The position numbers were made by a program, and so were the translations under genes. Shown here piece after piece: positions 2,216-52,557 of a stretch of DNA of 58,777 nt (position 1 is its first letter; each line of letters starts with the position of its first letter). The notes below the pieces were generated by a model. That model did no database searches. It saw only the letters and a list, made by a program, of their open reading frames with translations, and was not told where the DNA came from. Origin of the DNA: Gammaproteobacteria bacterium (GTDB taxonomy: Bacteria; Pseudomonadota; Gammaproteobacteria; Steroidobacterales; PWYM01); assembly GCA_003567475.1 (NCBI GenBank), contig PWZL01000016.1:1-58777 (forward strand), written 5' to 3'.

Positions 2216-2854
2216 GTGCTTGCAAGACCGACCGCCGCCGCGCGCGCCGGTCTCAACGTGGTGGCCGAGCTGCTGCGCGGACACGAGGGGTTCTACATCG
2301 ACGAGCACTATCCGCCGGGCGACGTGAGCGACAGTGCGTCGGACAGCCTGTACTACTATCACGCCCATCGTGATGTCGACCTCGAGCACGGCCACTTCCA
2401 CCTGTTTACGCGTGATACAGCGCGTAGCGTTCGACGGGTCGATGCGCCGCATGCGCACGCGTCGGCAGACCGCCTGGTGCATCTGGTCGCCATCTCGATG
2501 GATGACTGGGGAGAGCCGCAGGCCTTGTTCACCACCAACCGTTGGGTGACCGGGGAGGACTGGGCCGCCGCCGCGGAGGTCCGGGATCGGGTGGCGAGGT
2601 TCGAGATCGACCACGCCTATCCGTCATGGCCGGTGAATCGCTGGCTGACTGCGATGCTGCAGCTTTATGGCGCACATCTGGACGTGCTGCTCGCGGCCCG
2701 CGATGCCACGATCGACCGCTGGGCAGAAAAAAGACCGGGCGACGATCCCCGCGCCGCCCGGTCTCTGGAGGTGCTGTCCTGGCTGCCGGTGTCGATCGAT
2801 GCCTGCGCCGATCAGCTCGAAACCGGCAGCCTCAAGGCTATTTCTCGCCGTTGA
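2216..2854 (+). CDS. Conserved hypothetical protein (DUF6969-like)
   Basis: This 212-residue protein is of unknown function. It has a conserved-looking core with GLNVVAELLRG, EHYP, LYYYHAHR and EHGHFH in the first 65 residues, then SMDDWGEP and TNRWVTGE. The histidine-rich motifs could bind a metal. From memory these match the uncharacterised DUF6969 group, but I could not check it. The only in-frame start is GTG at 2216, without a good ribosome-binding site. Better-placed ATGs (2199, 2203, 2206) are in the other frames, so the N terminus is uncertain. The 3' end overlaps the convergent Rieske gene by 17 bases. Confidence 0.6.
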   Translation: MLARPTAAARAGLNVVAELLRGHEGFYIDEHYPPGDVSDSASDSLYYYHAHRDVDLEHGHFHLFTRDTARSVRRVDAPHAHASADRLVHLVAISMDDWGEPQALFTTNRWVTGEDWAAAAEVRDRVARFEIDHAYPSWPVNRWLTAMLQLYGAHLDVLLAARDATIDRWAEKRPGDDPRAARSLEVLSWLPVSIDACADQLETGSLKAISRR

Positions 2855-4199
2855 GGTAGCGGTCGAGTTCCTTGTGGAAGTGACGGATGCGGACTTCCTG
2901 CTCACTCCACAGCGGTCCACGGAAACCGCGCGAGCGGACACCCTTCTGCACCACCGGCAGCAGTTCGGCATCCTGGTCGAGCACCAAACCGAGCCCCGCG
3001 GGTTCGCCGAGGCCGACATGCTCGGTGTCCGGTCGGGTCTCGCCCGTGGTGTCCAGTCCCTCAGGGAGCCCCATCCACGCGGGTACAGTGTAGCTCGGGT
3101 CCGCGGCGGGTCGGAACAGCGTGATGGTGTCGTAGTAGAAGCGGTTCGGATCGGACTCGTGCGGGAGAAAGCGCATCAGGAAGGCACCCTCCGGGTGCAG
3201 GCCAACCTGAACATTCGGGAAAATGCCGGTCGCCCAACTGTCGGTGAGCTGCGCATCGGAGAGCCGACTGTAGTCCAGGCCGAGTTTATCGGCGCGCACG
3301 CGCTTAGAGCGCTGGATGAACTCGCGCACACCGATGGCTGGGCCGTCATACTGCTTTGGGTCGGCGCCGGCGTCGCGGATCATGAACTCCAGCCCCGCGT
3401 CCACCGCCTCCTGATCCGGTACCCGCGGGCTCTTCTTGCCGATGGGCACGATCATGCGCGAGGCGCCGTTCGGGTAGAGGTCGTACTGCACACCCAGGTC
3501 ATCCATGACCGTCGAGGTCTGCGGATGCACCGCGTGCAGGTGATAGCTCTCGTAGAAAGCATCGATGCCGTTCTTCCAGTTGGCCGCCCATTCGCTGGAG
3601 ACATGACGCACGGTGAACATCTGGTCGAGCTGGTAGTTCTCGAGATACCCCTCGGGTAGACCGATGTACTCCTTGAGTGGGGGGGCATTGCCATCCATGT
3701 TGATCCAGATCAGGCCGGCGTGTTCTTCACAACGAACGCTGGAGAGCTGCGGACGCGGGCAGAGCACCTCGGGTCGGAAGCTGTCCTCGTCGGTGATCGC
3801 GTTCAGCTGGCCATCGAGCTCGAAGCTCCAGGAATGAAACGAGCAGGTGAAGCGGGGTACGCTGCCGCGCTCGTTCAGCACCAGCTGGTTGCCCCGATGC
3901 GGGCAGACATTGTAGTGCGCCCGCACCGCGTGGGTGTCGTCCAGGGTGATGATGAACGACTCGGGCCCGACGTTGAACACGAAGTAGTCACCCGGCTCGC
4001 GCAGATCGGTGCGGGGGCCGGCGATCAGCCACACGCGTGGCCACAGGTGCTGCCATTCCTGGGCCATGAATTCGGTGCTGTAGTAGCGGTCGGGGGCGAC
4101 GACCTCGGTGCCATTGTCGACGTAGGGCCGCTTGGCTTCGAGCGAATCTTCCGGAGCGCTCGGGTTGACGACGGGGCCATGCTCGTAGTTGTAGGCCAT
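2838..4199 (-). CDS. Rieske non-heme iron oxygenase, alpha subunit
   Basis: This is a 453-residue aromatic-ring-hydroxylating oxygenase large subunit. The Rieske [2Fe-2S] ligands are Cys99, His101, Cys119 and His122 (CPHRG ... CSFHSW). The mononuclear iron site follows as Asp213, His220 and His225 (DAFYESYHLHAVH), and LDQDAEL near the C terminus may give the last carboxylate. No beta subunit gene is adjacent, so it is probably an alpha-only oxygenase that takes electrons from a separate ferredoxin. It resembles the paralogue at 49865 (shared LDQDA and RIRHFHK tail). An 18-bp palindromic operator lies 95 bp upstream (4294-4311), shared with the divergent TonB receptor. The substrate is unknown. 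Confidence 0.93.
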   Translation of the reverse strand: MAYNYEHGPVVNPSAPEDSLEAKRPYVDNGTEVVAPDRYYSTEFMAQEWQHLWPRVWLIAGPRTDLREPGDYFVFNVGPESFIITLDDTHAVRAHYNVCPHRGNQLVLNERGSVPRFTCSFHSWSFELDGQLNAITDEDSFRPEVLCPRPQLSSVRCEEHAGLIWINMDGNAPPLKEYIGLPEGYLENYQLDQMFTVRHVSSEWAANWKNGIDAFYESYHLHAVHPQTSTVMDDLGVQYDLYPNGASRMIVPIGKKSPRVPDQEAVDAGLEFMIRDAGADPKQYDGPAIGVREFIQRSKRVRADKLGLDYSRLSDAQLTDSWATGIFPNVQVGLHPEGAFLMRFLPHESDPNRFYYDTITLFRPAADPSYTVPAWMGLPEGLDTTGETRPDTEHVGLGEPAGLGLVLDQDAELLPVVQKGVRSRGFRGPLWSEQEVRIRHFHKELDRYLNGEK

Positions 4200-7827: not shown

Positions 7828-8727
7828 TCAACGCTCCGGAATGCGGAAGTAGTCCGGGATACCTGCCGGCCAGACATCACCCCACTGCTGGCCACCACCG
7901 TCGACCGTCAGCACTTCGCCGGTCACGAATTTTCCCGAGGGCGCCAGCAGGTAGACCACAGCTTCGGCGATATCGTAGGCGTCGCCGAGACGCTGCAACG
8001 GGTTGGAGTATCGAAACGCTTCGGCCGCCGCAGGCGGGTAGACATTGAAGCCCTCGGTCTCGACCGAGCCCGGGGCGACGCAGTTGACGCGAATGTCCAG
8101 CGGTGCCCACTCGACTGCGACCGTCTTCGACAGATAGACCACGCCGGCCCGGGCCGCGCAGGTATGGGCGACCTGCGGCATGCCCCGCTGCACCAGCGCA
8201 ACGATGTTCACGATACTCCCCGGTCGGCCCTCGTCTCGCCAGCGTCGCGCCGCCGACTGCATCATGTACCAGGTGCCGTTCAGGTTCGTGTCGATGACGG
8301 CGTTCCAGCCTTTTACGCTGAAGTCGATCGCCGCCTGCGGAAACTGGCCACCGCCGTTGTTGACGATACCGTCAAGCCGCCCGAATTCGCTCCAGGTGCG
8401 CTCCACCAGCGCTTCGACCTGCTCAGGATCGCGGATGGTCATTGCCGTGGTCGCGATCTGGCTGCCCGGCACCAGCGCACTGACCGCTTCGCGACAGTGC
8501 TCCAGCTTCTCGCCGCGCCGGCCACAGATCATGACCCGGGCGCCGAGTCGCGCCAGCAGAAAAGTCATGGCGCGGCCCAGTCCGCTGCCACCACCGGAGA
8601 CGATGTACACCTGGTCGGCGAGCAGATCATCCCGGTAGACGGTGGGACGTTCGGCGAGCTCCTCATCCGTGAAGCCCCAGCGACGCGTCGGCTCGTCTTT
8701 GATGGGCGTGGCCTTCATGGTGGTCAT
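7828..8727 (-). CDS. SDR oxidoreductase, PECR/2,4-dienoyl-CoA-reductase-like
   Basis: This 299-residue NAD(P)-dependent short-chain dehydrogenase has the cofactor loop GGGSGLG near residue 46 and NNGGGQF in place of NNAG. Where most SDRs have YxxxK it has AHTCAARAG, as in peroxisomal trans-2-enoyl-CoA reductase and dienoyl-CoA reductase relatives, which lack the classical tyrosine at this place. This favours an enoyl- or dienoyl-CoA substrate over an alcohol. It is the last gene of a four-gene operon (Rieske, HMGS-DUF35, thiolase, SDR) and starts 30 bp after the thiolase stop. Function in acyl-CoA reduction during ring or side-chain breakdown is inferred. Confidence 0.85.
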   Translation of the reverse strand: MTTMKATPIKDEPTRRWGFTDEELAERPTVYRDDLLADQVYIVSGGGSGLGRAMTFLLARLGARVMICGRRGEKLEHCREAVSALVPGSQIATTAMTIRDPEQVEALVERTWSEFGRLDGIVNNGGGQFPQAAIDFSVKGWNAVIDTNLNGTWYMMQSAARRWRDEGRPGSIVNIVALVQRGMPQVAHTCAARAGVVYLSKTVAVEWAPLDIRVNCVAPGSVETEGFNVYPPAAAEAFRYSNPLQRLGDAYDIAEAVVYLLAPSGKFVTGEVLTVDGGGQQWGDVWPAGIPDYFRIPER

Positions 8728-8757
8728 CGCATAGGTCCCCTGGTCAAGCGTGCGGAG

Positions 8758-9963
8758 TCAGGCGCCGTGCAGGCCGATCACGGAGATCGCTGCCACGTTG
8801 CGGATCGGGATGCCGCCTAGGTTATGCGTCAGTCCCAGTTTCGGTTGGGTCAGCTGCCGCGACCCTGCACGGCCGAGCAGCTGGAGATAGATTTCGTAGA
8901 CCATGCGCAGCCCCGAGGCGCCGATCGGATGGCCGAAGCACTTCAGTCCGCCGTCGATCTGGCAGGGAAGCTCGCCATCGGCGTCGTACACCCCGTCGAG
9001 GACGTCGCGAATGGCTGCCCCGCGGGGCGACAGACCCAGATCTTCCATGATCACCAGCTCGGTGATCGAGAAGCAGTCATGCACCTCGATCAGGTCGAGG
9101 TCGCGACGGGCATCGCGGATGCCGGCTTCCTCGTAAGCCCGCTTCGCGGCCAGCGGTGTCGTGAGGGTGTAGCTGCCGTCCCAGGACTCATGGCCCATTT
9201 CCACGCCGTTGGACGGTGCCAGCTGCAATGCCTTGACCGTGACCATATCGTCGCGGCGACCCAGGCTGCGTGCGATCTCGGGGGTGGTGACAATCGCGCA
9301 GGCCGCGCCGTCGCTCACACCGCAGCAGTCATACGTCCCCAGCGGAGAAGACACCATCGGTGCGTTCAGGATGTCTTCGATGGACGGCGTGTTGCGCAGA
9401 TGCGCCTTGGGGTTGTGACGGGCGTTCTGGTGACTCTTCCAGGAGACATGCGCCATCGCGCGCTTGAGTTCAGCCATGTCGATGCCATGGCGATTGGCAT
9501 AGGCGCTGGCCAGTTGGGCGAAGGCCCCGGGGGCCGTGCTGTTCGGCAGATAGAGGTCTTCGAAGGTGCCCTTGGTCCGCTCGGGCAGGCCCGCGTAGCC
9601 GGTGTCCTTGAGCTTCTCCACACCCATGGCCAGCGCGATGTCGCAGGCGCCGGCGGCAACGGCATACGTGGCGCCGCGTAGCGCCTCCGTGCCCGTGGCA
9701 CAGAGGTTTTCCACGCGGGTGACCGGGATGTTCGGCAGACGCAGTGCCATTGACAGCGGCAGGGCGGATTTGCCGGTGTTCTGCTCGTCGAAGAATACGC
9801 CCAGCCATGCCGCATCCACAGCGGATTTGTCGATACCGGCGTCGGTGACCGCCTCGGAAAACGCCTCGACCATCAGATCCTCATGGCCGCAATCCCAGCG
9901 CTCGCCAAAACGCGAACAGCCCATGCCGATGATCGCCACCTTGTCGCGGATGCCCTGCGCCAT
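8758..9963 (-). CDS. SCP2-type thiolase (acetyl-CoA acetyltransferase-like)
   Basis: This 401-residue thiolase-fold protein keeps the nucleophile Cys88 in ENLCATGTEAL and the histidine of GGLKCFGHPIGASG. The usual last motif with cysteine (CxGGG) is replaced by THNLGGIP, as in SCP2/Ltp-type thiolases. These cleave 3-ketoacyl-CoA or, with a DUF35 partner, act as retro-aldolases on steroid side chains. The gene upstream encodes a DUF35 domain and ends 5 bp before this start, so the two proteins probably form a complex. The start at 9963 is right after that stop; upstream residues in the same frame are antisense noise. Confidence 0.9.
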   Translation of the reverse strand: MAQGIRDKVAIIGMGCSRFGERWDCGHEDLMVEAFSEAVTDAGIDKSAVDAAWLGVFFDEQNTGKSALPLSMALRLPNIPVTRVENLCATGTEALRGATYAVAAGACDIALAMGVEKLKDTGYAGLPERTKGTFEDLYLPNSTAPGAFAQLASAYANRHGIDMAELKRAMAHVSWKSHQNARHNPKAHLRNTPSIEDILNAPMVSSPLGTYDCCGVSDGAACAIVTTPEIARSLGRRDDMVTVKALQLAPSNGVEMGHESWDGSYTLTTPLAAKRAYEEAGIRDARRDLDLIEVHDCFSITELVIMEDLGLSPRGAAIRDVLDGVYDADGELPCQIDGGLKCFGHPIGASGLRMVYEIYLQLLGRAGSRQLTQPKLGLTHNLGGIPIRNVAAISVIGLHGA

Positions 9964-9968
9964 CTCGT

Positions 9969-11405
9969 TCAGACGCTCCGAGCCGGGGCCGGCTTCCAGA
10001 AATACCGCGTGAAACCGCGTTTCTCGTCGATGTCCTTGATCCGGAAAACCATACGCAGCGGCGTGCCCACGCTCAGCTCGCCGGTTGCGAAGTCGGTGAA
10101 TTCCATCATCAGGCTGCCCCCCTCGGCGAAGCTCACGCTGCCATACATCAGCGGTGGTGATGGTGAATGGGCCTGCCAGTCTTCGGTGTAGGACTTCACC
10201 TGGGCACGACTGTCGGCGAATCGGTGCTCTTCCTGGGTGTCGATCGCACCGCAGTGCACGCATGCCCTGGTGCGGGGGAACTGCGCGGTACCGCAGGCGG
10301 TGCAACGTCCGCCGACAAAGGCGGTGATCGCGCGGCGCTTGCGGTAATACACCGACTGGGCTGTGCGTTTGTCGTGCTCGGCCCGCGCACCCCACTCCAT
10401 CTCCACCTGCCCGGTGAAAGACAGGTAGCGGAGGTACTCGGTTTCCTCGCGACGCAGCGACAGGTGGCCGGTGACGCCCAGTCCGCGCGGGGCTCTGGTG
10501 ATCGCGTCGGTCACGCGGAACAGCAGGGCGTCGGCGCCCTGGCCGAAGCCGAGGACCAGAATCACCTGTCCGGGGGAAGCCTCCTCGAGGGCGTGCACGA
10601 GCATCAGGAGCGGCTGTGCGCTGCCCGCGTGGCCGCAATTTGCCGCCAGGTCATCAGCCAGTCGTGAGGGGTCGACCCCGAGCCTGCGGCACACCGCCTG
10701 GCCGACGCGTACGGGACCAGGGAAAATCAGCGTGTCCACTGCGTCGGCACCCAGACCGGCATCGCTGAAGGCGCGGGCACACACCTCCGGCACCATCTTC
10801 AAATAGCCTTCATCGCGGATCCAGCGTTCCTCCAGCGGGTAGTCGTAGCGTTCGCCGCTGGCACGATAATGGTCGACCAGATCGCGTGCGAGGCTCGCGC
10901 CGCCCAGAAAGCCGGCGACCACAGCTTCGCCGTAGCCCAGATGCAATGCGGCTGCCGCATCGCCAAAGCGCAATTCGCCTGCGCTGCCAGCGCGTGCGAG
11001 ACGATGCTCGGAGGCGATCAGCAGGCCCGCGCGGGTCTGGCCGCGCAGACTTGCCAGCAGTGCCGAGGTTGCGCAGCGCAGACTGCCGCCGGTGTCGCGG
11101 GTCGCGACCGATTCCTCGAGGTCGAGTGCTGCGGCCACCAGGCCCGCGTTACTGCGATCAGCGAAAGGCAGGGTGGTGGAGGCCAGTTGGAGATCTGCGA
11201 GGACCGGCCGGGCGCCCTGCAGGCAGTCTCGACCGGCCTCGACGGCCATGGTCAGTGCGTCTTCGTCCCAGTTGCAGATCGCCCGTTCGCCGTGAGCCTG
11301 CTGCCTGAATCCAGGGTTCAGCCAGGCGGTCTGGGTGACGATGCGCGCGCGCGGCAGCCGCAGCAGAGGCACATAGGCGCCCCATCCGAGGATGCCGGGG
11401 GTCAC
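9969..11405 (-). CDS. HMG-CoA-synthase-like domain fused to a DUF35 zinc ribbon/OB-fold
   Basis: This is a 478-residue two-domain protein. Residues 1-330 have the thiolase-superfamily fold of HMG-CoA synthases (GWGAYVPLLRL start, NCGHAGSA with His259). Residues 365-470 are a DUF35 domain with a four-cysteine zinc ribbon (Cys368, 371, 382, 385) and an acyl-CoA-binding OB-fold. By my alignment the synthase nucleophile position in GGSLRCATSA holds Leu, with Cys111 shifted by two, so classical condensation is doubtful. Archaeal thiolase, HMGCS and DUF35 form a three-protein complex; here two of the three are fused next to the thiolase. The start is GTG at 11405 with GAGGG upstream; a TTG at 11423 is the alternative. 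Confidence 0.85.
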   Translation of the reverse strand: MTPGILGWGAYVPLLRLPRARIVTQTAWLNPGFRQQAHGERAICNWDEDALTMAVEAGRDCLQGARPVLADLQLASTTLPFADRSNAGLVAAALDLEESVATRDTGGSLRCATSALLASLRGQTRAGLLIASEHRLARAGSAGELRFGDAAAALHLGYGEAVVAGFLGGASLARDLVDHYRASGERYDYPLEERWIRDEGYLKMVPEVCARAFSDAGLGADAVDTLIFPGPVRVGQAVCRRLGVDPSRLADDLAANCGHAGSAQPLLMLVHALEEASPGQVILVLGFGQGADALLFRVTDAITRAPRGLGVTGHLSLRREETEYLRYLSFTGQVEMEWGARAEHDKRTAQSVYYRKRRAITAFVGGRCTACGTAQFPRTRACVHCGAIDTQEEHRFADSRAQVKSYTEDWQAHSPSPPLMYGSVSFAEGGSLMMEFTDFATGELSVGTPLRMVFRIKDIDEKRGFTRYFWKPAPARSV

Positions 11406-11409
11406 GGGC

Positions 11410-12621
11410 TCAGCCCTCGACAAAATCGTGCAGCACGGGCGTGACCCGCAGCGGTTCGGGTACCCGTTCCCGACCGATCCGCCGGTCGAGTTCTTCGTGC
11501 CAGTGGTAGATCCGGCGCTCCTGGTAGTTCAGGGGCATCCCCTTGAACCCCGGAGATTCCACGGACTTCTGGATTTGCGGGGCGAACTGCGTGTCTTCCT
11601 CGAGAATACGCTCGAAGTTCGCGATGCGGGTCTCCCAGAGCGCCGGGGGCTCGCCGTCACCCCAGTCGGGGGCGAACCAGTGGCACTCGATGCGCATGCT
11701 GCGGGGCCCCGTGGGCCAGAACAGCAGAAACGGCATGCCGGAGTCGGCCATGGGCGTGACCAGGTTAGGGTAGAGGTTGAACGAAGGATTGTTTTTCGCG
11801 AACAGCTCATCGACCGAGGGAATCTGCTTCATGCCCACCGTCCCCGGATCGACCCAATCCGGCCGGCGGTTGGGGGTGAGCATCAACGAGTGGCCGTTTT
11901 TCCACAACACGATCTTCGAGCCGCGGTGATCGAGGAAGCGGTCGACGGTGTGCTGGTGGATGGACTTCAGGTGATAGACCTCCAGGAAGGCATCCATCAG
12001 CACCTTGACGTTGCACTCGACGTCCACCCCGTCTTTCTTCACGAACCGGATGTTGTCGATGTCGTACTGCGCGAAATACTCGGGAATCGGCCCGAGATGC
12101 TCCAGCAGAGGTTCGGCGTCGGGATCCTCGTTGATGAAGATCCAGTTGCCCAGCTGTTCACAGCGAACCTCGATGAGTCCTCTGCGGTGCATGTCCAGGC
12201 CAACGAAATCGCGCTTGTCACGCAGGTTGATCAGCTTGCCTTCGAAGTCATAGGTCCAGCCGTGATACCCGCAGACCAGTCCCCGGGTGTGACCGCAGGC
12301 CTCCTTCACCAGCGGGCCACCACGGTGACGGCAGGTGTTGTAGAACGCGCGGACCTTCAGATCCTTGCCGCGAATCAGGAAAATCGGGCTGCCGGTCCTG
12401 GTGAACATCAGGAAACTGCCCGGTTCCGGCAGCTCGTCGGCGTGTCCGGCATACAGCCAGGAGCGCTTCCAGAGCTGTGCGTCTTCCAGCGCGAGGAACT
12501 GCGGGTCCACATAACGCCCGCCGGGGATGTCCGGCAGCTGCGGGAAATGTTCCGGAGGACCGGAGCGGTTGCGCTCGTACTCCATACCCTCGCGGAGATG
12601 GTCTGTGATGGCTGCTTCCAT
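11410..12621 (-). CDS. Rieske non-heme iron oxygenase, alpha subunit
   Basis: This is a 403-residue oxygenase. The Rieske ligands are Cys97, His99, Cys117 and His120 (CRHRGG ... CGYHGW); the catalytic iron is held by Asp210, His217 and His222 (DAFLEVYHLKSIH). It is more distant from the other two Rieske oxygenases of the window than they are from each other. No beta subunit is adjacent. It is the first gene of an operon with the HMGS-DUF35 fusion, thiolase and SDR. The start at 12621 (MEAAITDH) is chosen because upstream residues in the frame are Arg/Pro-rich noise; 12585 is an alternative. Operator copy C and a TATACT -10 lie upstream. Confidence 0.92.
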   Translation of the reverse strand: MEAAITDHLREGMEYERNRSGPPEHFPQLPDIPGGRYVDPQFLALEDAQLWKRSWLYAGHADELPEPGSFLMFTRTGSPIFLIRGKDLKVRAFYNTCRHRGGPLVKEACGHTRGLVCGYHGWTYDFEGKLINLRDKRDFVGLDMHRRGLIEVRCEQLGNWIFINEDPDAEPLLEHLGPIPEYFAQYDIDNIRFVKKDGVDVECNVKVLMDAFLEVYHLKSIHQHTVDRFLDHRGSKIVLWKNGHSLMLTPNRRPDWVDPGTVGMKQIPSVDELFAKNNPSFNLYPNLVTPMADSGMPFLLFWPTGPRSMRIECHWFAPDWGDGEPPALWETRIANFERILEEDTQFAPQIQKSVESPGFKGMPLNYQERRIYHWHEELDRRIGRERVPEPLRVTPVLHDFVEG

Positions 12622-25130: not shown

Positions 25131-27434
25131 GTGAGCAACATCCAGGAGTCCATCCGCCCCGTCGTCCTCGATGGCCGTGTCCACCTCAGGCGCCAGGTCG
25201 CCGTGCTGTGCGGTGCCACGCTGCTGGCCGCCGGCTGGCAGGCCCCTGCATCCGCCCAGCAGGGCGCGCGGACGCTCGACGAGGTGGTGGTCACCGCCCA
25301 GCGGCGGGAAGACGTGGCGCAGGACGTGCCGATCAGCCTCACGGCGTTCACCGCCGAAGACATCACGCTCAGCAACATCCAGGGCGTGGATGACTTTTTC
25401 TTCCGTACCCCGAACGTGAGCTTCATTCAGGAGGGCTCGCGCGACCGCCGCGAGCTCAGCATCCGCGGCGTGACCAACCAGGTTTCCCGCGACATCGACG
25501 TGCGCCCGCAGTCTTTCGGTTTCTACGTTGACGAGTTCAACGTGGTGCAGGCGACGGTCAACCCGCCGATCCTGGACATGGAGCGCATCGAGGTGCTGCG
25601 GGGTCCGCAGGGTACCGGTTTCGGGCGCAATGCCGTCGGCGGGGCGATCAACCTGGTCACCCGCAAGCCGGACAATGACCTCTTCATGGAAAACTCGGTC
25701 GGCTACGCGCGTTTCAACACCATCGATGTGGAATCGGTGCTGAACGTGCCGATTATCGAGGATACGCTCGCGGTGCGCTTCGCCGGCAAGTTCGCCCAGA
25801 CCGATGGCCACATCCGCAACATCAATCCCATCGGCGGCGGCAACGATTCCAAGTACCAGTACCTGCGCGGCACCGTGCGCTGGACGCCCACCGAGCGCTT
25901 CGCCCTGGATGTCAGCGGTACCTATGTCGACGAAGAAGTCGGTATGCGCGAGGGTGTGCCCTCGGGCGTGATGTCCACTTTCGGTGGCTTCCTGTTCGGG
26001 CCGGAGGCCAATCCCGACGGCGTGGGCTTTTTTCCCGAGAACCGTAACCGCGTGAACTTCAACCGAGGTCAGAGCGTCGGCAACAAGTTTTACTATCTGA
26101 TGGCCCGCGCGCAGTACGACTGGGATGATCTCTCGCTGATCAGCATCACCGGCTATATCGACAAGGACGAGTTCCTGCGTGGCGATATCGATGGCGGCAG
26201 CATCGACGCTTTCTTCGAGACCAAGCCGCTGTTTCGCGATTCCTTCACCCAGGAGTTCCGCCTGGTCTCGGCACTGGATGGGGCACTCAACTGGAGCGCC
26301 GGGGTGATCTACGCGCGCGATCGTGGCAGTCAGGACCAGTTCACCTTCGCGGGCAACGCCTTCGATCCGAATGATCCTGGCAATCAATTCGTCAGCGGAC
26401 TGCCGTTCGCCCCCGGGCAACAGGTGACCTCATCGGGTTCCAATGGCGAATTCGAAAGCTATGCCGCTTACGGCGAGCTGTTCTATGACATCAGCGATCA
26501 GCTCACGCTGAAGCTCGGCGCGCGGGTCACCCGTGACGAGATCGACTCGCTGACCTTCCGGACCTCCGGCGATCCTCCCGTGATCACCGCCTTCGCGGAA
26601 GGCTCGACCCGCTACACGGATTTCTCGCCCTCGGCGGCGCTGACCTGGGCGCTGACCGACGAGATCAACGTCTACGGCAGCGTGGCACGCGGCTACAAGA
26701 GCGGCGGGATCCAGACGAATATCGCGCTGGCTGGCGCGGGTGAGCGCGAGGACTTCGACGAGGAAACGGTGTGGAGCTACGAGGTCGGCGTGAAATCGGA
26801 ACTCTTCGACCGACGGCTGCGGCTGAACGCCGCGGCTTTCCTGATGGACTGGAAAGACATGCAGGTGAACACCGCCGTCGGTGTCCAGCGTCCGGACGGC
26901 AACATCGCTTTCATCGCCGCCATACTCAATGCTGCCGAGGCGCGCAACTACGGTGTCGAGGTGGACGCGCTGGCACTGGTCACCGACAACCTGGTGCTCG
27001 GCGTTGGTGTGGGCTATCTCAGTGCCAAGTTCGACAGCTTCGATGGTGCGTTCATCGATGGGCAGTTCGTCGACCTGACGGATCGGCGCATCCCCAATGC
27101 GCCGCGCCTCACCGCCAACGCCGATGCCCAGTACAACTTCGAACTGGGTAACGGCAACGAGGCGTACCTGCGGGGCGAGTGGTTTGCCCGCAGCCGCAAT
27201 GTCGCCAATATCAACTCGCTGGTGCGTGAAGGCTTCCCATGGGAAGTCCCGGGTTTCAACCAGGTCAACCTGCGCGCCGGTATCCGCACCGAGCGCTGGG
27301 ATGTCAGCGCCTATGTGGAGAACGTGTTCGACAATACTTTCTTCACCAATTCCTACCAGAAAGCCTTTTTCGGCGGACTGCATGTCGTACCGTCGTTCCG
27401 CAATTACGGGGTGCGGCTGACGGTGCGGTTGTGA
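25131..27434 (+). CDS. TonB-dependent outer membrane receptor
   Basis: This 767-residue receptor has a signal peptide ending at ASAQ, a TonB box (LDEVVVTAQRR), and a plug with LRGPQGTGFGRNAVGGAIN, followed by a barrel with ADAQYNFEL and a C-terminal RLTVRL. It begins with GTG after a GGAGAG site. It is in line with a small exported SnoaL-like protein upstream and with a secreted amidohydrolase 13 bp downstream, so its ligand may be an amide or peptide-like compound; that is inference from context. The palindromic operator found elsewhere in the window is not seen upstream. Confidence 0.93.
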   Translation: MSNIQESIRPVVLDGRVHLRRQVAVLCGATLLAAGWQAPASAQQGARTLDEVVVTAQRREDVAQDVPISLTAFTAEDITLSNIQGVDDFFFRTPNVSFIQEGSRDRRELSIRGVTNQVSRDIDVRPQSFGFYVDEFNVVQATVNPPILDMERIEVLRGPQGTGFGRNAVGGAINLVTRKPDNDLFMENSVGYARFNTIDVESVLNVPIIEDTLAVRFAGKFAQTDGHIRNINPIGGGNDSKYQYLRGTVRWTPTERFALDVSGTYVDEEVGMREGVPSGVMSTFGGFLFGPEANPDGVGFFPENRNRVNFNRGQSVGNKFYYLMARAQYDWDDLSLISITGYIDKDEFLRGDIDGGSIDAFFETKPLFRDSFTQEFRLVSALDGALNWSAGVIYARDRGSQDQFTFAGNAFDPNDPGNQFVSGLPFAPGQQVTSSGSNGEFESYAAYGELFYDISDQLTLKLGARVTRDEIDSLTFRTSGDPPVITAFAEGSTRYTDFSPSAALTWALTDEINVYGSVARGYKSGGIQTNIALAGAGEREDFDEETVWSYEVGVKSELFDRRLRLNAAAFLMDWKDMQVNTAVGVQRPDGNIAFIAAILNAAEARNYGVEVDALALVTDNLVLGVGVGYLSAKFDSFDGAFIDGQFVDLTDRRIPNAPRLTANADAQYNFELGNGNEAYLRGEWFARSRNVANINSLVREGFPWEVPGFNQVNLRAGIRTERWDVSAYVENVFDNTFFTNSYQKAFFGGLHVVPSFRNYGVRLTVRL

Positions 27435-27447
27435 GGGAGGAGTGCGC

Positions 27448-28710
27448 GTGAGAAAGCTGCTGCTGCTTGCGGCGTTGCTGGTCTGGCAGCCGCTGCTGGC
27501 CGGGGAAACCCGTGCGATCGTCGGCGCCGCGCTGGTCGATGTGATCGAGGGTCGTGTGATCCCTGATGCCGTGGTGGTGATCCGTGATGGTCGGATCACC
27601 GCTGCGGGGTCAGCGGCAGACACGCCAGTGCCGGAGGATGCCGAGCGTATCGAGCTCGAGGGCCGCTGGCTGATTCCGGGGTTGATGAACATGCACGTGC
27701 ACCTCGGACTGATCCTGCCCGGGCTGATGGCGGCCGAGCATGCCACCGAGAGCGATGCCCAACTGGTGCTGCGCATGGCCGATAACGCGCGCCAGAGCCT
27801 GCACAGCGGTGTGACCACGATTCGTCAGCCCGGTGACCGGCGTCACGCCGACATCGCGCTGGCCCGGGCGATCGATCGCGGTGTTCTGCCGGGTCCGCGG
27901 ATCGTCTCCTCCGGAGAGATGATCAACATCACCGGCGGCCACGGCGCGAGCATGGGTACGCATTTCGATGGGCCCTACGAGATACGCAAGGCGGCGCGGC
28001 TGCAGGTGCGGGCCGGGGCGCAGTGGCTGAAGATCGCCATCTCCGGGGGGATTGCCACGCCGGTCGGTGGGATCGGTCAGGGGCTGATGACGCCGGACGA
28101 GATCTCCGCGGTGGTGGATATCGCCGAGCGCCACGGCATCAAGGTCACGGCACACTCGGGCTCCGATCATGCCACCCGTGAAGCGGTGGAGCTGGGTATC
28201 CACGGTGTCGAGCATGGCTATTTTCTGCAGCGGCCGACCCTGCGTCTGATGTCCGAGCGCGGGACCTGGTACGTGCCCACCATTGTGGTCAGTCAGCCGG
28301 CCACCTTCGATTTTTTCGAGCGGATCGGGTCGCCGCCGTGGTACATGGCACGCGTCTACGAAGTGGGTCAGGACCACTGGCGTGCGCTGGAAATGGCGGT
28401 CGAGGAGGGCGTGAACATTGCGCTCGGCACCGATCAGTTTCCCTATGAGCCGAATGACGGGACGACCGCAACCGTTCGCGAGGCGGAATACTACGTCGAA
28501 GCGGGAATGACCCCGCTGCAGGCCTTGCGCTCGGCGACCCTCGAGTCGGCGCGGATGCTCGGCATGGAGGACAGCATCGGCTCGCTGTCGCCCGGCAAGC
28601 ACGCCGATATCGTGGCGATCGAGGGTGATCCGCTCGCGGACATCTCGGCGCTGCGCAGCATCGGTTTCGTGATGAAGGGTGGCCAGGTCTACCGCCACGA
28701 CTGGGAATAG
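27448..28710 (+). CDS. Secreted amidohydrolase
   Basis: This is a 420-residue amidohydrolase-superfamily enzyme with a signal peptide (LLLLAALLVWQPLLAG). Metal ligands are visible as His83 and His85 in NMHVHLGL, a lysine in QWLKIAISGG as possible bridging ligand, histidines in TAHSGSDH and GVEHGYF, and the aspartate of GTDQFPYE. The layout resembles secreted Xaa-Pro dipeptidase/imidazolonepropionase-like proteins. The GTG at 27448 is preferred over 27442 because GGGAGG lies 7 bases upstream. It is tightly placed between a TonB receptor and an acyl-CoA dehydrogenase (7 bp to the next start), so it likely works on the imported ligand. Confidence 0.88.
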   Translation: MRKLLLLAALLVWQPLLAGETRAIVGAALVDVIEGRVIPDAVVVIRDGRITAAGSAADTPVPEDAERIELEGRWLIPGLMNMHVHLGLILPGLMAAEHATESDAQLVLRMADNARQSLHSGVTTIRQPGDRRHADIALARAIDRGVLPGPRIVSSGEMINITGGHGASMGTHFDGPYEIRKAARLQVRAGAQWLKIAISGGIATPVGGIGQGLMTPDEISAVVDIAERHGIKVTAHSGSDHATREAVELGIHGVEHGYFLQRPTLRLMSERGTWYVPTIVVSQPATFDFFERIGSPPWYMARVYEVGQDHWRALEMAVEEGVNIALGTDQFPYEPNDGTTATVREAEYYVEAGMTPLQALRSATLESARMLGMEDSIGSLSPGKHADIVAIEGDPLADISALRSIGFVMKGGQVYRHDWE

Positions 28711-28717
28711 CCCGGCG

Positions 28718-29875
28718 GTGGGTGATCCGCTCGATCTGCTCGATGTCCGTGGACAGCTCAGCGATGAAGAGTGCGCGGTGCAGGATAGCGTGGCACGGTT
28801 TGTCGCGGCCGAAGTGCTGCCGATCATCGGCGAAGCCTTCGACGCCGGCCGGTTCCCGCGTGAACTCGTCAGGCCCATGGCGGAGCTTGGTCTGCTCGGC
28901 AGCAGCCTGGAGGGCTGGGGCTGCCCCGGCCTCGGTCCCGTCGCTTACGGTCTGATCTGCCAGGAAATCGAGCGTGGTGATTCGGCGCTCCGAAGCTTCG
29001 TGTCGGTACAGTCCAGCCTGGTCATGTGGCCGATTCACACCTACGGTTCCGAAGCGCAGAAGGCCCGCTGGCTGCCGGCGCTTGCGCGCGGAGACGCCAT
29101 CGGCTGCTTCGGCCTCAGCGAGGCTGCGGGCGGGTCGGACCCGGCGAGCATGCGCACGCGGGCGCGCCGCGATGGCAGCGACTGGATTCTCGATGGCAGC
29201 AAGACCTGGATCAGCAACGGCTCCATTGCCGACTGTGCACTGATCTGGGCGAGATCCGAGGAAGGTGTCCGGGGGTTTCTGGTCGAGCGGGGGACGCCGG
29301 GCTTCACCGCCACGGATATCGGACGCAAATACAGCCTGCGCGCGGCAGTGACCTCTACCCTGCATCTCGATACGGTGCGCGTGCCGGCAGAGCAGATGCT
29401 GCCGGGGGCACTGGGACTGCGCGCCGCACTCAGCTGTCTTTCCGAGGCCCGTTACGGCATCTGCTGGGGTGCGGTCGGCGCGGCCAGCGCCTGCCTGGCA
29501 GAGAGCATGGCCTATACCGGGGAGCGCCTGCTGTTCGGTCGTCCGCTGGCGCATACCCAGTCGGTCCAGCAGCGGCTTGCGGACATGGCGCGGCAGCTTG
29601 CCACGGCACGCCTGCTGGCCCTGCATCTCGGCCGCCTCAAGCAGGCGGACACGGTGTCACCGGTGCAGGTCTCGCTGGCCAAATGGAACAACGTGCGCAT
29701 GGCGCTCGAGCTGGCCCGCGAGTGCCGCGATCTGCTCGGCGCCGCCGGGATCACCAGTGCCCACCAGGCCATTCGCCACATGCTCAACCTCGAGAGCGTG
29801 ATCACCTACGAGGGCACGGAGACCATCCACCAGCTCGTGGTGGGCCAGGCCCTGACTGGACAATCCGCGTTCTGA
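28718..29875 (+). CDS. Acyl-CoA dehydrogenase, glutaryl-CoA-dehydrogenase-like
   Basis: This 385-residue FAD acyl-CoA dehydrogenase has FGLSEAAGGSDP, a typical GSKTWISNG strand, LFGRPLAHTQSVQQRL and the catalytic Glu in YEGTETIHQ. FVSVQSSLVMWPI is characteristic of the glutaryl-CoA dehydrogenase branch, which oxidises and often decarboxylates dicarboxylic acyl-CoAs. The GTG at 28718, 7 bp after the amidohydrolase stop, is chosen; an ATG at 28679 would overlap that gene. Being cytoplasmic, it would act on acids that arise after uptake of the amidohydrolase products. Confidence 0.88.
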   Translation: MGDPLDLLDVRGQLSDEECAVQDSVARFVAAEVLPIIGEAFDAGRFPRELVRPMAELGLLGSSLEGWGCPGLGPVAYGLICQEIERGDSALRSFVSVQSSLVMWPIHTYGSEAQKARWLPALARGDAIGCFGLSEAAGGSDPASMRTRARRDGSDWILDGSKTWISNGSIADCALIWARSEEGVRGFLVERGTPGFTATDIGRKYSLRAAVTSTLHLDTVRVPAEQMLPGALGLRAALSCLSEARYGICWGAVGAASACLAESMAYTGERLLFGRPLAHTQSVQQRLADMARQLATARLLALHLGRLKQADTVSPVQVSLAKWNNVRMALELARECRDLLGAAGITSAHQAIRHMLNLESVITYEGTETIHQLVVGQALTGQSAF

Positions 29876-30011
29876 TTCGCGAACGCACGATTCCACTCCA
29901 TGGCGTTCATCGGGGAGTGGCTCTTGCAGACATCGTGCCCGGTGTACCTGCTAGAGTGCGGTTTCAACCAAGCACAGGGGACGTCAGCAGAGGCGGCTCC
30001 CGGACAACACC

Positions 30012-31211
30012 ATGCACATGACACCCAACGCCCGCGCGTTCGACGACTGGATCCGTGATCGCTTCGTCGGCATCAACACCGAGCTCGAGGCCCTGTACTT
30101 CGTCCAGCCGGACCGAAACGTGATTCCTGCCGAAGGCGAGGCGCTGCGTCAGGAGCTGCTGGCGAGCGGCCACGCGCATGTCTCCCGCCTGCTTGCCGAA
30201 GGCAACACCGATGAAGGCTTCGAGGCTGCATTCGACCTGCTGGGGAATCTCGGCATGTTCATGGCCGCCTGTCGTCGGCACGGGCTGACCGACCCGGCTC
30301 GCGAACAGCGCTCACCACTGCAGGCGGCTTCTGCGCTTGCGCTGCACCTCGGCGCCTCGCTGGGGGTGACGCCGCGCTTCGCCACCAGTCACCTGACCAC
30401 CCACAATCCGGCCCGTGACGGCGTCTACAAGTGCTTCACGCGGCTGGAGGCCGAGCGCGTGTTCTTCGACTACAACACGCGCGGCATTCTCGCCTACAAG
30501 CGGGCCGCCGATGCGCTGGTGCGGACTCTGCCAATGGGAATTTCCCATCCCGCCGTGCTGCAGCTGCTAGACGACGCCGCCGCTGCGCTGGCCGATGTCC
30601 AATGCAGCAATGCGGCGCTGTTCGAGGCGCTCGATGTGGACGAATTTTTCTATTGCGTGCGGCCCTACCTGAAGCCCTACCGCGTCGGCCTGCAGGTCTA
30701 TCGTGGCGCCAACGCGGGCGATTTTGCCGGCATCAACGAGATCGACCTGCTGCTCGGCCTGTGCCGCGCCGACCATCCCGAGTACTCGCAGCTGCTGGTC
30801 GACAAATTTCTCTACATGCTGCCGGAAGACCAGCAGCGCCTGCGCGACTGCATGCGCCGACGAAGCCTTCTCGACGCCCTGCTCGAGGCGCTCCCCGAGG
30901 CCGGCGGGCAGGCATGGTTCCAGGCGGTCGTGCCGCGCTTCCTCGAGGTCTGCGCGCGGCATGGTGAGACGGCCAGTCAGCACCATGATCAGCTGGTGCG
31001 GCGGTTCATCGAGCGGCCTGCGCAGGCATTGCCTGAGGAGGAGCAGGGGGATGTGACCGCCAGCGGACCGCCGCTTTCAGTGCTGCTGCCGGCGCTGGAG
31101 CGGTTGCGCGATCTACGCAGGGCAGCACCGCGGGAGGATATCCCGACCCGCCATCGCGACCTGGCGCGCCTGCGCGCCGCCCTGCCGCCGACGACAGCGG
31201 AGGCCGGCTGA
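30012..31211 (+). CDS. PrnB-like (DUF1864) protein of the heme dioxygenase superfamily
   Basis: This is a 399-residue protein. Landmarks are RFVGINTELEALYF, NLGMFMAACRRHG, LEAERVFFDYNTRGI, and VRPYLKPYRVGLQVYRGANAGDF (in pieces). These resemble what I recall of PrnB, the pyrrolnitrin enzyme related to tryptophan 2,3-dioxygenases, and its DUF1864 relatives; the assignment is from memory. Relatives bind heme and an indole-like substrate. It ends one base before a class V PLP-enzyme start, so the two are coupled. No halogenase or other prn genes are near, so pyrrolnitrin itself is not expected. Confidence 0.6.
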   Translation: MHMTPNARAFDDWIRDRFVGINTELEALYFVQPDRNVIPAEGEALRQELLASGHAHVSRLLAEGNTDEGFEAAFDLLGNLGMFMAACRRHGLTDPAREQRSPLQAASALALHLGASLGVTPRFATSHLTTHNPARDGVYKCFTRLEAERVFFDYNTRGILAYKRAADALVRTLPMGISHPAVLQLLDDAAAALADVQCSNAALFEALDVDEFFYCVRPYLKPYRVGLQVYRGANAGDFAGINEIDLLLGLCRADHPEYSQLLVDKFLYMLPEDQQRLRDCMRRRSLLDALLEALPEAGGQAWFQAVVPRFLEVCARHGETASQHHDQLVRRFIERPAQALPEEEQGDVTASGPPLSVLLPALERLRDLRRAAPREDIPTRHRDLARLRAALPPTTAEAG

Positions 31212-31212
31212 G

Positions 31213-32400
31213 GTGGTACAGGCGGGCTGGCCTGCGCGGTCCGACTGGCCGGCACCAGAGGACTGGCCAGGCTGGCGTGCCCAGTTCCCGGTTCTGGGTC
31301 GACGGACCTATCTGAACTCAGGCTCATGCGGTGCGCTGGCGTTGCCGGTGAGGGCTGCCATGGAGGACTACCTTGAATTGCGGCTGCAAGAGGGCGCGGA
31401 CTGGGGGCTCTGGCTCGCTCGGATCGAGGCCTTGCGCAGTTCGCTGGCGGGGTTGCTTGGCGTGAGGCCTGGCGAACTGGCGCTGACATCCTCGGCCTCT
31501 GCGGGGCTCAACAGCCTCGCCAGCGCGCTCAGCTTCACCGGCGGCCGCCACCGTGTGGTGATCAGCGACTTCGAGTTTCCGACCAGCGCCCAGATCTGGC
31601 ACGCGCAGGCCCGCCGGGGTGTCGAGGTGCTCCATGTGCCTACCACGGCGACCGGTGACGAGGTGCCGCTGGCACACTTCGAGCCGTTGATCGATGAACA
31701 CACGGCGCTCGTGGCCGTGACCCATGTCTGTTATCGCAACGGCGCACGGCTCGACATCCCCGCGATTGTGGAACTGGCCCATGCGCGGGGTGCCCGCGTG
31801 CTGCTGGACTGCTATCAGTCCGTCGGCGCGGGGCCGCTCGATCTCGCCTCGCTCGGCGTCGATTTTGCCGTAGGCGGGATGATGAAATATCTGCTCGGGA
31901 CCTCGGGCAGCGGCTTCATGTTTGTCCGTGGTGAGCTGATTCCCACGCTCGAGCCGCTGGCCACCGGCTGGTTAGCCCAGGCAGACGTGGGCGCGATGGA
32001 TATCACCGGGCATACCCCGGCGCCTGATGCCCGTCGTTTCGAGGCCGGCACCCCAGGCGTGGTCAACAGCCAGGCGGCCGCCGCAGGCGCAGCGATCCTC
32101 GACCACGTGGGACTCGCGTCAGTCGGCGCCAGGGTCGAGGCGCTGGTGACGCGCTGTCTTGCTGCCCTGGCGGACCAGGGGGTTGCGGTGGCGACGCCGC
32201 AGCCACCGGAACAGCGGGGCGCGACCGTGGCCATCCGCGCAAGCGACGCGGCGGCGCTGGTCGAGGCGTTGGCGCGCCACGGCATTGTGACCTCCTGCCG
32301 CGACGGCAACGTCCGCGCCTCGTTTCACTTCTATAACGACGACGAGGATATTTCCCGATTGCTCGGCGCACTCGCCCGCGAGCGGGCCTTGCTGCGCTGA
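31213..32400 (+). CDS. Class V aminotransferase-fold PLP enzyme
   Basis: This is a 395-residue fold-type I PLP enzyme of the class V group (cysteine desulfurase, isopenicillin-N epimerase and kynureninase relatives). The PLP lysine lies in GGMMKYLLGTSG, the Asp that binds the ring nitrogen in LLDCYQSVGA, and NSGSCGALALP opens the N-terminal substrate arm. It starts with GTG one base after the stop of the PrnB-like gene. Kynureninase-like chemistry after a dioxygenase step is tempting because tryptophan dioxygenase plus kynureninase is the classical pair, but no formamidase is present. A strong terminator follows directly. Confidence 0.88.
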   Translation: MVQAGWPARSDWPAPEDWPGWRAQFPVLGRRTYLNSGSCGALALPVRAAMEDYLELRLQEGADWGLWLARIEALRSSLAGLLGVRPGELALTSSASAGLNSLASALSFTGGRHRVVISDFEFPTSAQIWHAQARRGVEVLHVPTTATGDEVPLAHFEPLIDEHTALVAVTHVCYRNGARLDIPAIVELAHARGARVLLDCYQSVGAGPLDLASLGVDFAVGGMMKYLLGTSGSGFMFVRGELIPTLEPLATGWLAQADVGAMDITGHTPAPDARRFEAGTPGVVNSQAAAAGAAILDHVGLASVGARVEALVTRCLAALADQGVAVATPQPPEQRGATVAIRASDAAALVEALARHGIVTSCRDGNVRASFHFYNDDEDISRLLGALARERALLR

Positions 32401-49814: not shown

Positions 49815-49864
49815 GCCATCCCCCCAGAGAAAGCGTCGGCGACCGGCAGGCCGCGCGACTGTGA

Positions 49865-51244: not shown

Positions 51245-51287
51245 AGGGTTCGGCCTCGCTTGACGGCGGTCGGCGAGCGCGGACGGC

Positions 51288-52049
51288 TCAGTACTGCACC
51301 CGGTTGGTGAAGCCTAAATCCGCCACGATGTTGGCCCCCTGCAGGACGCTGCCCGCGGGGCTGGCCGCAAAGGCGACCACCCGGGCGATCTCCTCCGGTG
51401 TCGCCATGCGCCCGGCGGGGATCTGCTTCAAGGTCGCCTTGTAGAACTCCGGCATCGTGCCCTCGATCATCTCCCAGGCGCCGCCTTCGAAATACACCGG
51501 CCCCGGTGAGACCGCGTTGACGCGGATGCCTTTCTTGGCGACGAACAGCGCGAGCTGCTTGCTGTAATTCAGCAGGGCCGCTTTCATGGCGTTATAGGCC
51601 ATCGGACCGGCAAAGAATTCAACCGCGTTGGTGGAGCTGATGATCACTACGGCGGCCGCCTCGGACTGCTCGAGCTGCGGCATGAGCGTCTCCACGCCGC
51701 GCACGGTGCCCAGGATGTCGATCTCGAAGCACTTCCACCAGTTCTTCTCGGAGTCCATGCCACCGCCGCCGCTGACATTGGGCACGAAAATGTCGACCCC
51801 ACCGAGAGCCTCGGCCGTCTCCGTGAGCCAGACCTTGTAGGCATCGCCGTCGCGCACGTTGACCGCGGCGCCGACGGCGTTCACGCCTTTGGCCTTGAGT
51901 GCCGCGACGGTTTCAGCCACCTCGTCCTCATCGCGTGAGCAGACGCCGACATCCACGCCTTCGTCGGCCAGCAGGTCGACGATCCGACGGCCGATCCCCT
52001 TGGTCGAGCCGGTGACGATGGCCTTCTTGCCCTTGAGTCCGAGATCCAT
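51288..52049 (-). CDS. SDR-family oxidoreductase
   Basis: This is a 253-residue short-chain dehydrogenase. It has the cofactor motif TGSTKGIG, the catalytic Ser in IISSTNAVEF, and the YxxxK pair in AYNAMKAAL. The active site is complete, so it should oxidise or reduce an alcohol or ketone with NAD(P). The start at 52049 has GGGGGAG upstream. It is the first gene of the operon with the Rieske oxygenase and PQQ dehydrogenase, behind a TATACT promoter and operator E. Confidence 0.93.
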   Translation of the reverse strand: MDLGLKGKKAIVTGSTKGIGRRIVDLLADEGVDVGVCSRDEDEVAETVAALKAKGVNAVGAAVNVRDGDAYKVWLTETAEALGGVDIFVPNVSGGGGMDSEKNWWKCFEIDILGTVRGVETLMPQLEQSEAAAVVIISSTNAVEFFAGPMAYNAMKAALLNYSKQLALFVAKKGIRVNAVSPGPVYFEGGAWEMIEGTMPEFYKATLKQIPAGRMATPEEIARVVAFAASPAGSVLQGANIVADLGFTNRVQY

Positions 52050-52145
52050 GCGCGTGCTCCCCCTGTTGATTGCTGCCGGCGGCGCGCTGTCGGCCACCGC
52101 GTGACACTGGTATCTTCCGGCGACACCGCGGCCGCCATGGGTTCG

Positions 52146-52151
52146 AGTATA
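52146..52151 (-). promoter_or_regulatory. -10 element (TATACT) of the SDR-Rieske-PQQ operon
   Basis: TATACT on the minus strand, exactly 20 bp beyond operator copy E and 97 bp before the SDR start, in the same geometry as the element at 12771-12776. Confidence 0.5.
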
Positions 52152-52171
52152 CTCTGCCGGCGGAGGTGGAC

Positions 52172-52553: not shown

Positions 52554-52557
52554 ACAG

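Follow-up and report, generated by a model that had tools for sequence, protein, structure and literature searches.

Several described systems pair a thiolase-fold protein with a DUF35 protein. In the acyltransferase PhlABC, the subunit PhlA is devoid of Cys and Glu, and catalysis is ascribed to residues of PhlC only (PMC6392133). Among steroid side-chain aldolases, Ltp2 uses the Tyr of a YDHF motif and Sal that of YDCY, with a Gly at the thiolase Cys site, and in the benzoylsuccinyl-CoA thiolase BbsAB the DUF35 partner is BbsA (PMC12329534). In ibuprofen degradation, ipfABDEF joins a Rieske oxygenase, a thiolase-like protein and DUF35 (PMC9195938 and PMC11347016). Here we analyse a stretch of 58,777 nucleotides (nt) from a gammaproteobacterium (the window, contig PWZL01000016.1), which is one entire contig of a 3.06-Mb genome in 102 contigs and contains four adjacent genes, RIE1, HD, THL and SDR1, that combine such components in another way. 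We propose, with a probability of roughly 0.58, that they form the core of a catabolic pathway for a carboxylic acid handled as its CoA thioester, in which the substrate is oxygenated, a C=C bond is reduced and a thiolase held on a scaffold makes a retro-Claisen cut. The four genes are:

11410..12621, minus strand: RIE1, Rieske oxygenase alpha subunit, CntA/GbcA-like, 403 amino acids (Pfam PF00355 1.8e-16, PF00848 5.2e-22)
9969..11405, minus strand: HD, pseudo-HMG-CoA synthase (HMGS) fused to DUF35, 478 amino acids, GTG start (Pfam, residue counts, fold model)
8758..9963, minus strand: THL, PRK06157-family thiolase, 401 amino acids (NCBIfam NF004810, residues)
7828..8727, minus strand: SDR1, short-chain dehydrogenase/reductase (SDR) resembling trans-2-enoyl-CoA and dienoyl-CoA reductases, 299 amino acids (phmmer, motif)

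The intergenic gaps, read from RIE1 to SDR1, are 4, 5 and 30 nt, and Pfam assigns Rieske and Ring_hydroxyl_A to RIE1, ACP_syn_III_C, zf-ChsH2 and OB_ChsH2_C to HD, Thiolase_N and Thiolase_C_1 to THL and adh_short_C2 to SDR1. The original prediction had described four genes with these gaps, and its coordinates agree exactly while its family labels hold at the Pfam level. Its further claims, that the genes constitute one operon and that an oxygenase is here joined to carbon–carbon chemistry on CoA thioesters, are likewise supported, the former by the spacing together with an order conserved elsewhere, from which we infer that RIE1-HD-THL-SDR1 is co-transcribed.

Residue counts given below derive from tblastn alignments of 88 HD loci, namely nine from related genomes, 78 of the best 80 among HD relatives found in at least 580 genomic stretches (80 taken, 78 examined, an uneven sample), and L106; L026 and L027 were dropped as duplicates of L017 and L018 (L, G and C numbers are our designations of loci, genomes and contigs). 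THL passes the PRK06157 family cut-off (NF004810, 664.7 versus 403 bits in NCBIfam), and its top match among solved structures is the archaeal thiolase 6esq_A (186 bits; PhlC, 64.5 bits). It carries Cys88, HDCF at residues 295-298 and CFGHP at residues 342-346, all of which are conserved among the aligned loci: Cys88 in 85/85, HDCF in 83/83, and Cys342, Phe343 and His345 of CFGHP in 82/82. THL thus possesses the residues expected of a CoA-dependent SCP2-type thiolase (nucleophilic Cys, HDCF and the His of GHP) and not those of a retro-aldolase (a Tyr where HDCF has its His, and no Cys nucleophile). The corresponding motif is YDAF in IpfD (from plasmid pIBU218), YDHF in an Ltp2-like protein of the same plasmid and YDAF in a Terrarubrum homolog, none of which has a Cys at the Cys88 site; GHP is absent from IpfD and the pIBU218 Ltp2-like protein, and the Terrarubrum homolog keeps HP. 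IpfD presumably employs the Tyr of its YDAF motif in catalysis. Because Cys88, HDCF and His345 are kept and the retro-aldolase Tyr is absent, the chemistry expected of THL is retro-Claisen (thiolytic), not retro-aldol, and a steroid-type retro-aldolase identity was rejected on the catalytic residues.

The top solved sequence relative of HD is PhlA of PhlABC (5m3k, 2.5e-23), the next cited being the archaeal HMGS 6esq_I (5.9e-13), and the C-terminal third of HD matches archaeal DUF35, ChsH2 and PhlB. We mapped the HMGS catalytic sites through the printed alignment of HD to 6esq_I, in which archaeal Glu82, Cys114 and the His of the FHQP stretch (whose assignment as the catalytic His was made in this analysis) correspond to Thr77, Leu109 and Pro229. 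HD therefore has none of the three residues (Glu, Cys, His) of an HMG-CoA synthase and matches the HMGS-like A subunit, free of catalytic Cys and Glu, of the multi-component acyltransferases. The Glu site is Thr in 88/88 loci; the Cys site is Gln in 60, Arg in 16, Leu in 10 and Met in 2 (Cys in 0/88); at the His site, 81 loci have Pro, six have His and one has Asn. Two residues past the Cys site, the window HD has Cys111, which is present in only 3/88. Printed alignments revealed that PhlA, the CsATase homolog and MucA (9vbo) also have neither Glu nor Cys at the HMGS sites. HD scores below the NCBIfam cut-offs for HMG-CoA synthase (NF003274, 131.2 versus 244 bits; TIGR00748, 79.1 versus 353.35 bits). 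The DUF35 part has a Cys4 zinc ribbon, C368/C371/C382/C385 (C-x2-C-x10-C-x2-C), each Cys of which is kept in 86-88 of the 88 loci.

An AlphaFold2 model of HD (mean pLDDT, a per-residue confidence score, 87.8; pTM, a whole-fold score, 0.91) was the only model used in the two fold searches. Foldseek returned chains of CsATase, PhlABC, archaeal HMGS and MucABC as best matches, and VIA-align gave Z 43.2 with a root-mean-square deviation of 2.0 over 330 aligned residues against 6esq_I, the CsATase and PhlA chains following within 2 Z units. Since these scores are so close, the fold alone cannot part PhlA from a true HMGS; the residues do separate them. On this evidence the HMGS half looks catalytically dead. 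We reject HMG-CoA synthesis by HD because Glu and Cys are lost from the catalytic sites, and the residue pattern favours an inactive synthase half in the service of the thiolase.

The best solved match of SDR1 (phmmer) is 1yxm, a peroxisomal trans-2-enoyl-CoA reductase (5.8e-53); other solved relatives are 3imf (an SDR), 6lln (a putative dehydrogenase of citronellol catabolism) and 4fc6 (peroxisomal 2,4-dienoyl-CoA reductase), and the score lies under the NCBIfam dienoyl-CoA reductase cut-off (204 versus 318 bits). SDR1 does not have the YxxxK motif of classical SDRs: HTCAAR stands in its place, its Thr and Arg aligning with the Tyr and Lys of levodione reductase, and HT[CA]AAR is found in 13/13 homologs at 51% identity or more. 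The solved relatives and the loss of YxxxK together suggest that SDR1 probably reduces an enoyl-type CoA thioester and does not oxidise the product of the oxygenase. A role as cis-diol dehydrogenase was rejected on the enoyl-CoA-reductase relatives and the HTCAAR motif, and a scheme of hydroxylation, oxidation by SDR1 and thiolysis was dropped, SDR1 having no catalytic Tyr.

The iron site of RIE1 comprises the bridging Glu214 and His217-x4-His222, and a bridging Glu precedes the first iron His by three residues in 17/17 RIE1 sequences (that of the window plus 16 others sharing at least 50% identity). This is the arrangement of CntA/GbcA-like monooxygenases, CntA having the bridging Glu E205 and the iron His H208 (PMC7948474); by our reading of its sequence, IpfA has Asp at this position, and it is 23% identical to RIE1. 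RIE1 falls below all NCBIfam cut-offs (GbcA, 123.6 versus 670 bits) and is thus related to GbcA but not a member; neither this match nor the HMG-CoA synthase matches of HD, being under cut-off, were taken as protein names. No ring-hydroxylating beta-subunit family was recognised in the operon or among the 51 window proteins scanned with Pfam.

These residues bear on three elements of the original prediction. Of its label 'HMGS-DUF35', the fusion stands and the HMGS does not, the latter being a pseudo-HMGS that has lost both Glu and Cys from its catalytic sites. Removal of a side chain by the retro-aldol route of steroid degradation is contradicted by Cys88, HDCF and His345 of THL, by the absence of a YDHF/YDCY Tyr and by a DUF35 zinc motif that is Cys4 and not Cys3His. 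Ring hydroxylation, finally, finds no backing in the CntA-type bridging Glu or in the search for a beta subunit among the window proteins scanned.

The original prediction had also proposed to seek the four-gene order in other genomes, and this search was productive: the order does occur elsewhere, so that the refuting condition set by the prediction, an order conserved nowhere, did not apply. Full-length HD is encoded in 10/59 genomes searched (its own included) at 42-100% identity, among them three of the four other genomes of the genus; the nearest named relatives among the matches listed are the gammaproteobacterial metagenome-assembled genomes (MAGs) DLM2.Bin61 (87%) and CSSed162cmB_305 (81%). 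We take both MAGs to originate from soda lakes. RIE1 lies at most 400 nt upstream of HD in 9/88 loci (L083 and eight of the 81 loci whose upstream sequence spans 1300 nt or more), and THL at most 400 nt downstream in 73/83 loci with room; THL is more than 400 nt away in nine other loci, and no thiolase match at E 1e-60 was found in 3/88, one of which (L102) has none within 4.2 kb downstream. Searching 369 genomes of the class revealed RIE1 (E at most 1e-90) in six genomes at eight places, four of which adjoin HD, two of them newly found (G300, G395); at the other four, which are copies in G148 and G369 and paralogs in G013 (C15) and in the genome of the window itself (C98), RIE1 does not adjoin HD. 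The own-genome paralog (63%) lies beside another Rieske gene (G000:C98:22000-41900, L124). Counting the nine loci, two further genomes and the window, RIE1 is followed by HD in 12 genomes (G000, G002, G003, G004, G013, G046, G300, G395, L028, L083, L097 and L106), THL comes next in 11 (the G395 contig stops inside HD), and all four genes are present in nine. These genomes span more than one proteobacterial class, the records of L028 and L083 being titled Alphaproteobacteria. Recurrence of the four-gene order beyond the genus, the family and the class goes beyond chance.

In a THL tree of 86 rows, all ten RIE1-linked thiolases fall within one 24-row group whose support (92/95) narrowly misses a star; the smallest set with a star that contains all ten has 29 rows. 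RIE1 linkage requires two label changes on this tree against a shuffled mean of 9.7, and 0/500 shuffles were as low; L030 and L031 were scored as not Rieske-linked, though their upstream sequence is too short to tell. The mixed host classes inside the 24-row group suggest that the RIE1-linked set spread by transfer. Niveispirillum cyanobacteriorum TH16, also among the genomes with this order, carries its four-gene set on a plasmid, and because this strain is sequenced, the question of the substrate becomes testable. Among the plasmid copies of HD listed, annotations are vague ('3-oxoacyl-ACP synthase III C-terminal domain-containing protein', 'OB-fold domain-containing protein'), and the Niveispirillum thiolase is annotated as acetyl-CoA acetyltransferase. 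Loci L030, L031, L035, L038 and L042 have near-identical or unlikely relatives and come from MAGs whose titles name Candidatus Kuenenia, Klebsiella pneumoniae and Rhizobium sp. Q54; these titles are probably wrong and look like those of mislabelled bins.

The four genes are a recurrent but modular set. RIE1 and SDR1 occur with an enoyl-CoA hydratase gene between them and without HD-THL in Paracoccus pantotrophus (L108), P. versutus (L115) and Terrarubrum (L109), and RIE1 stands with thioesterase and MaoC genes in L107, L112, L113 and L114. In an alphaproteobacterial MAG (L080, 9112-12761), an SDR1 homolog (61%) directly precedes HD and THL, with no RIE1 match in the locus. In L032, L043, L075, L099 and L104, from a related gammaproteobacterial/proteobacterial group, CoA transferase, HD, THL, acyl-CoA dehydrogenase and CoA ligase genes stand together, again with no RIE1 match.

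The operon is surrounded by the following genes (identities are those of homologs in compared loci):

2838..4199, minus strand: RIE2, second Rieske oxygenase (Pfam), 29% identical to RIE1; homologs at 54-95% in L017-L020, L030, L097, L106
4538..7090, plus strand: TonB-dependent receptor (Pfam), probable uptake; 45-92% in L017-L019, L106
12894..13808, plus strand: glutathione S-transferase-like protein (PF13417 1.4e-11), no NCBIfam match; in L017, L018, L020, L097
13841..15025, minus strand: CaiB-type CoA transferase (PF02515 2.2e-109); 58-94% in L017-L020, L028, L106
15041..15844, minus strand: alpha/beta hydrolase (PF00561 3.1e-18); in L017-L019
15932..17092, plus strand: acyl-CoA dehydrogenase (Pfam); 71-96% in L017-L021, L097
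17126..17512, minus strand: FDX, Rieske-type ferredoxin (Pfam PF00355 4.2e-17); 42-88% in six loci, L017, L018, L019, L020, L028, L097
17534..18211, plus strand: SDR2, second SDR (PF00106 5.7e-31); in L017-L019
18394..18702, plus strand: ABM-family (quinol monooxygenase-like) protein (PF03992 6.5e-14); in L017-L020, L097, L106
18717..20375, plus strand: ACS, acyl-CoA ligase (PF00501 2.7e-79); 43-92% near RIE1 in L017-L019, L106-L109, L113, L115
20396..20689, plus strand: second ABM-family protein (PF03992 9.4e-13); in L017-L020

FDX, which the original prediction does not mention, is the probable electron donor of RIE1. An ACS-like CoA ligase (43-92%) is found in 10/17 RIE1 loci, window included (the L083 sequence is too short to tell). 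CaiB, hydrolase, SDR2, acyl-CoA dehydrogenase and CoA ligase all score below the listed NCBIfam cut-offs. A nitroreductase-family gene at 1412-2104, which adjoins the cluster in L018 and L019 too, passes the malonic semialdehyde reductase cut-off (NF003768, 282.7 versus 152 bits), a possible sign that the pathway yields a C3 product. Farther off in the window, a separate island at 25131-32400 encodes a protein of the PrnB family (PF08933, 5.1e-171) along with a class-V aminotransferase/kynureninase-like protein, a TonB receptor, an amidohydrolase and an acyl-CoA dehydrogenase, and is perhaps related to tryptophan or pyrrolnitrin catabolism; a second catabolic-looking cluster at 47844-57789 contains a third Rieske oxygenase (49865-51244), a ferredoxin-like stretch (52236-52550), SDRs, an acyl-CoA dehydrogenase, a hydrolase and a glutathione S-transferase.

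The catabolic direction of the proposed pathway was inferred from the presence of the TonB receptor, CoA ligase and CoA transferase, and the occurrence of these genes and of acyl-CoA dehydrogenase in several RIE1 clusters was counted in its favour. The putative order of steps and electron path are as follows: RIE1, a monooxygenase-like enzyme, would oxygenate the substrate, its electrons probably coming from the cluster's Rieske ferredoxin; SDR1 would reduce a C=C bond of a CoA thioester; and THL would cut a C–C bond in a retro-Claisen reaction. If THL works as other thiolases do, Cys88 would accept the acyl group, proton transfer would involve His345 together with the Cys of HDCF, and CoA would free the product. 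HD may form a complex with THL like that of PhlABC, in which the HMGS half, a dead PhlA-like shell with no HMG-CoA chemistry, and its own DUF35 would hold THL and shape the cavity for CoA and substrate. Niveispirillum was obtained from aggregates of cyanobacteria in Lake Taihu, and L107 (RIE1 without HD) belongs to a Sphingobium from an algal phycosphere, habitats that give a weak hint of a phototroph-derived substrate.

Several observations weigh against this pathway. The operon has no recognised gene for a 3-hydroxyacyl-CoA dehydrogenase, which leaves the beta-keto group without an assigned source there, and no ferredoxin reductase was recognised among the window proteins scanned. No RIE1 stands directly upstream in 79/88 HD loci (six of the 79 have less than 1300 nt of upstream sequence), and the 19.9 kb around the second RIE1 of the same genome (L124) has no HD, THL or SDR1 match. 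Nor do the four genes always travel together, because SDR1 accompanies RIE1 without HD-THL (L108, L109, L115) and HD-THL without RIE1 (L080), and the SDR slot is taken by a carboxymuconolactone-decarboxylase-family gene in 2/11 RIE1-HD-THL genomes (L020, L097). Finally, 6/88 HD proteins retain His at the HMGS His site, Glu or Cys being retained in none.

Part of this evidence would also suit an ordinary short-chain thiolase complex, acting on acetoacetyl-CoA or another 3-ketoacyl-CoA, that lies beside an oxygenase by chance with no special coupling: HD relatives are widespread, most of the loci examined have no RIE1 directly upstream, and the nearest solved thiolase is an archaeal acetoacetyl-CoA thiolase. 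We consider this unlikely, as the RIE1-HD-THL order is held across classes and its thiolases are confined to one group of the THL tree. We judge still less probable a CoA-independent acyltransferase or deacylase of the PhlABC/MucABC type acting on a phenolic or heterocyclic ketone. The HMGS half is indeed nearest in sequence to PhlA, the CsATase homolog and MucA, which share its lack of Glu and Cys, but THL is much closer to CoA-dependent thiolases than to PhlC, and CoA-ligase, CoA-transferase and acyl-CoA dehydrogenase genes surround the operon. Moreover, the essential His56 of PhlC has no fixed His counterpart in THL residues 50-69, where the window protein has no His, 40/85 sequences have His62 and 11/85 have His57, a comparison that is approximate as THL and PhlC were not aligned directly. 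Side-chain removal of the Ipf or steroid kind, in which the Rieske oxygenase would make a beta-hydroxy or cis-diol acyl-CoA for retro-aldol cleavage by a thiolase-like protein with DUF35, has precedents in ipfABDEF, where these proteins and a CoA ligase serve ibuprofen breakdown, and in Ltp2/ChsH2 and Sal/Shy, thiolase-fold aldolases with DUF35, but is very improbable here given that every aligned member has Cys88, HDCF and His345 in place of the Tyr of YDHF/YDCY (YDAF in IpfD), that the HD zinc motif is Cys4 and not Cys3His, and that RIE1 is distant from IpfA and has no recognised beta subunit among the scanned window proteins. A bolder extension of the CoA-thioester pathway, which we put forward as a doubtful possibility, is that HD with PRK06157 thiolases represents an undescribed, widespread class of scaffolded retro-Claisen complexes, one horizontally spread branch of which has joined up with a Rieske monooxygenase and an enoyl-CoA reductase without the Tyr as an O2-dependent variant of beta-oxidation for acids closed to the ordinary route, perhaps of cyanobacterial or algal origin.

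The original prediction had not recognised the pathway as described. This holds only in part, since an oxygenase, a thiolase-like protein and DUF35 are known together from ipfABDEF, and it was right in that ipf has other catalytic residues and no HMGS domain. The parts are known; the fused pseudo-HMGS-DUF35 with a thiolase and a Rieske link was not found in our searches of open-licence papers. PhlABC (2,4-diacetylphloroglucinol biosynthesis, 5M3K), CsATase (9SKH) and MucABC (9VBO) likewise combine an HMGS-like subunit without Cys/Glu, DUF35 and thiolase-like components, whereas the window system has DUF35 fused to the HMGS half, a CoA-dependent PRK06157-type thiolase and catabolic-looking surroundings with a Rieske oxygenase. 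The archaeal thiolase/HMGS/DUF35 complex (6esq) has the same three components, the best match of THL and the same HMGS fold, but its HMGS retains Glu82 and Cys114, both lost from HD, in which DUF35 is moreover fused. BbsAB (7PXP) belongs to the same thiolase superfamily, although THL, at 144.7 bits, falls far short of the 750 bits required for BbsB, and we know of no HMGS-like partner of BbsAB. Ltp2-ChsH2 and Sal-Shy share the thiolase fold with a DUF35 partner and differ in catalytic residues; Shy has a Cys3His zinc motif against the Cys4 of HD, and its partner domain is MaoC, not HMGS. The ipfABDEF cluster of pIBU218 resembles the locus in uniting Rieske oxygenase, thiolase-like protein, DUF35 and CoA ligase, and differs in the YDAF of IpfD without Cys or GHP, in its Rieske alpha and beta subunits, and in having no HMGS domain and no SDR1 in the operon. 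Two further modules were seen among the compared loci: on pIBU218 (L111, 938-5194), a second pair of thiolase-fold (YDHF) and DUF35 proteins lies beside enoyl-CoA hydratase-like and CaiB genes, and on a Terrarubrum flagellatum plasmid (L109, 501-5342), a CoA transferase, an unfused DUF35, a thiolase-like YDAF protein without Cys, an SDR, a RIE2-like Rieske protein and MaoC form what looks like an ipf-type retro-aldolase module. If the coupling proposed for RIE1-HD-THL-SDR1 is true, the oxygenase and retro-aldolase pairing by which ibuprofen is degraded would gain a counterpart that works by retro-Claisen cleavage.

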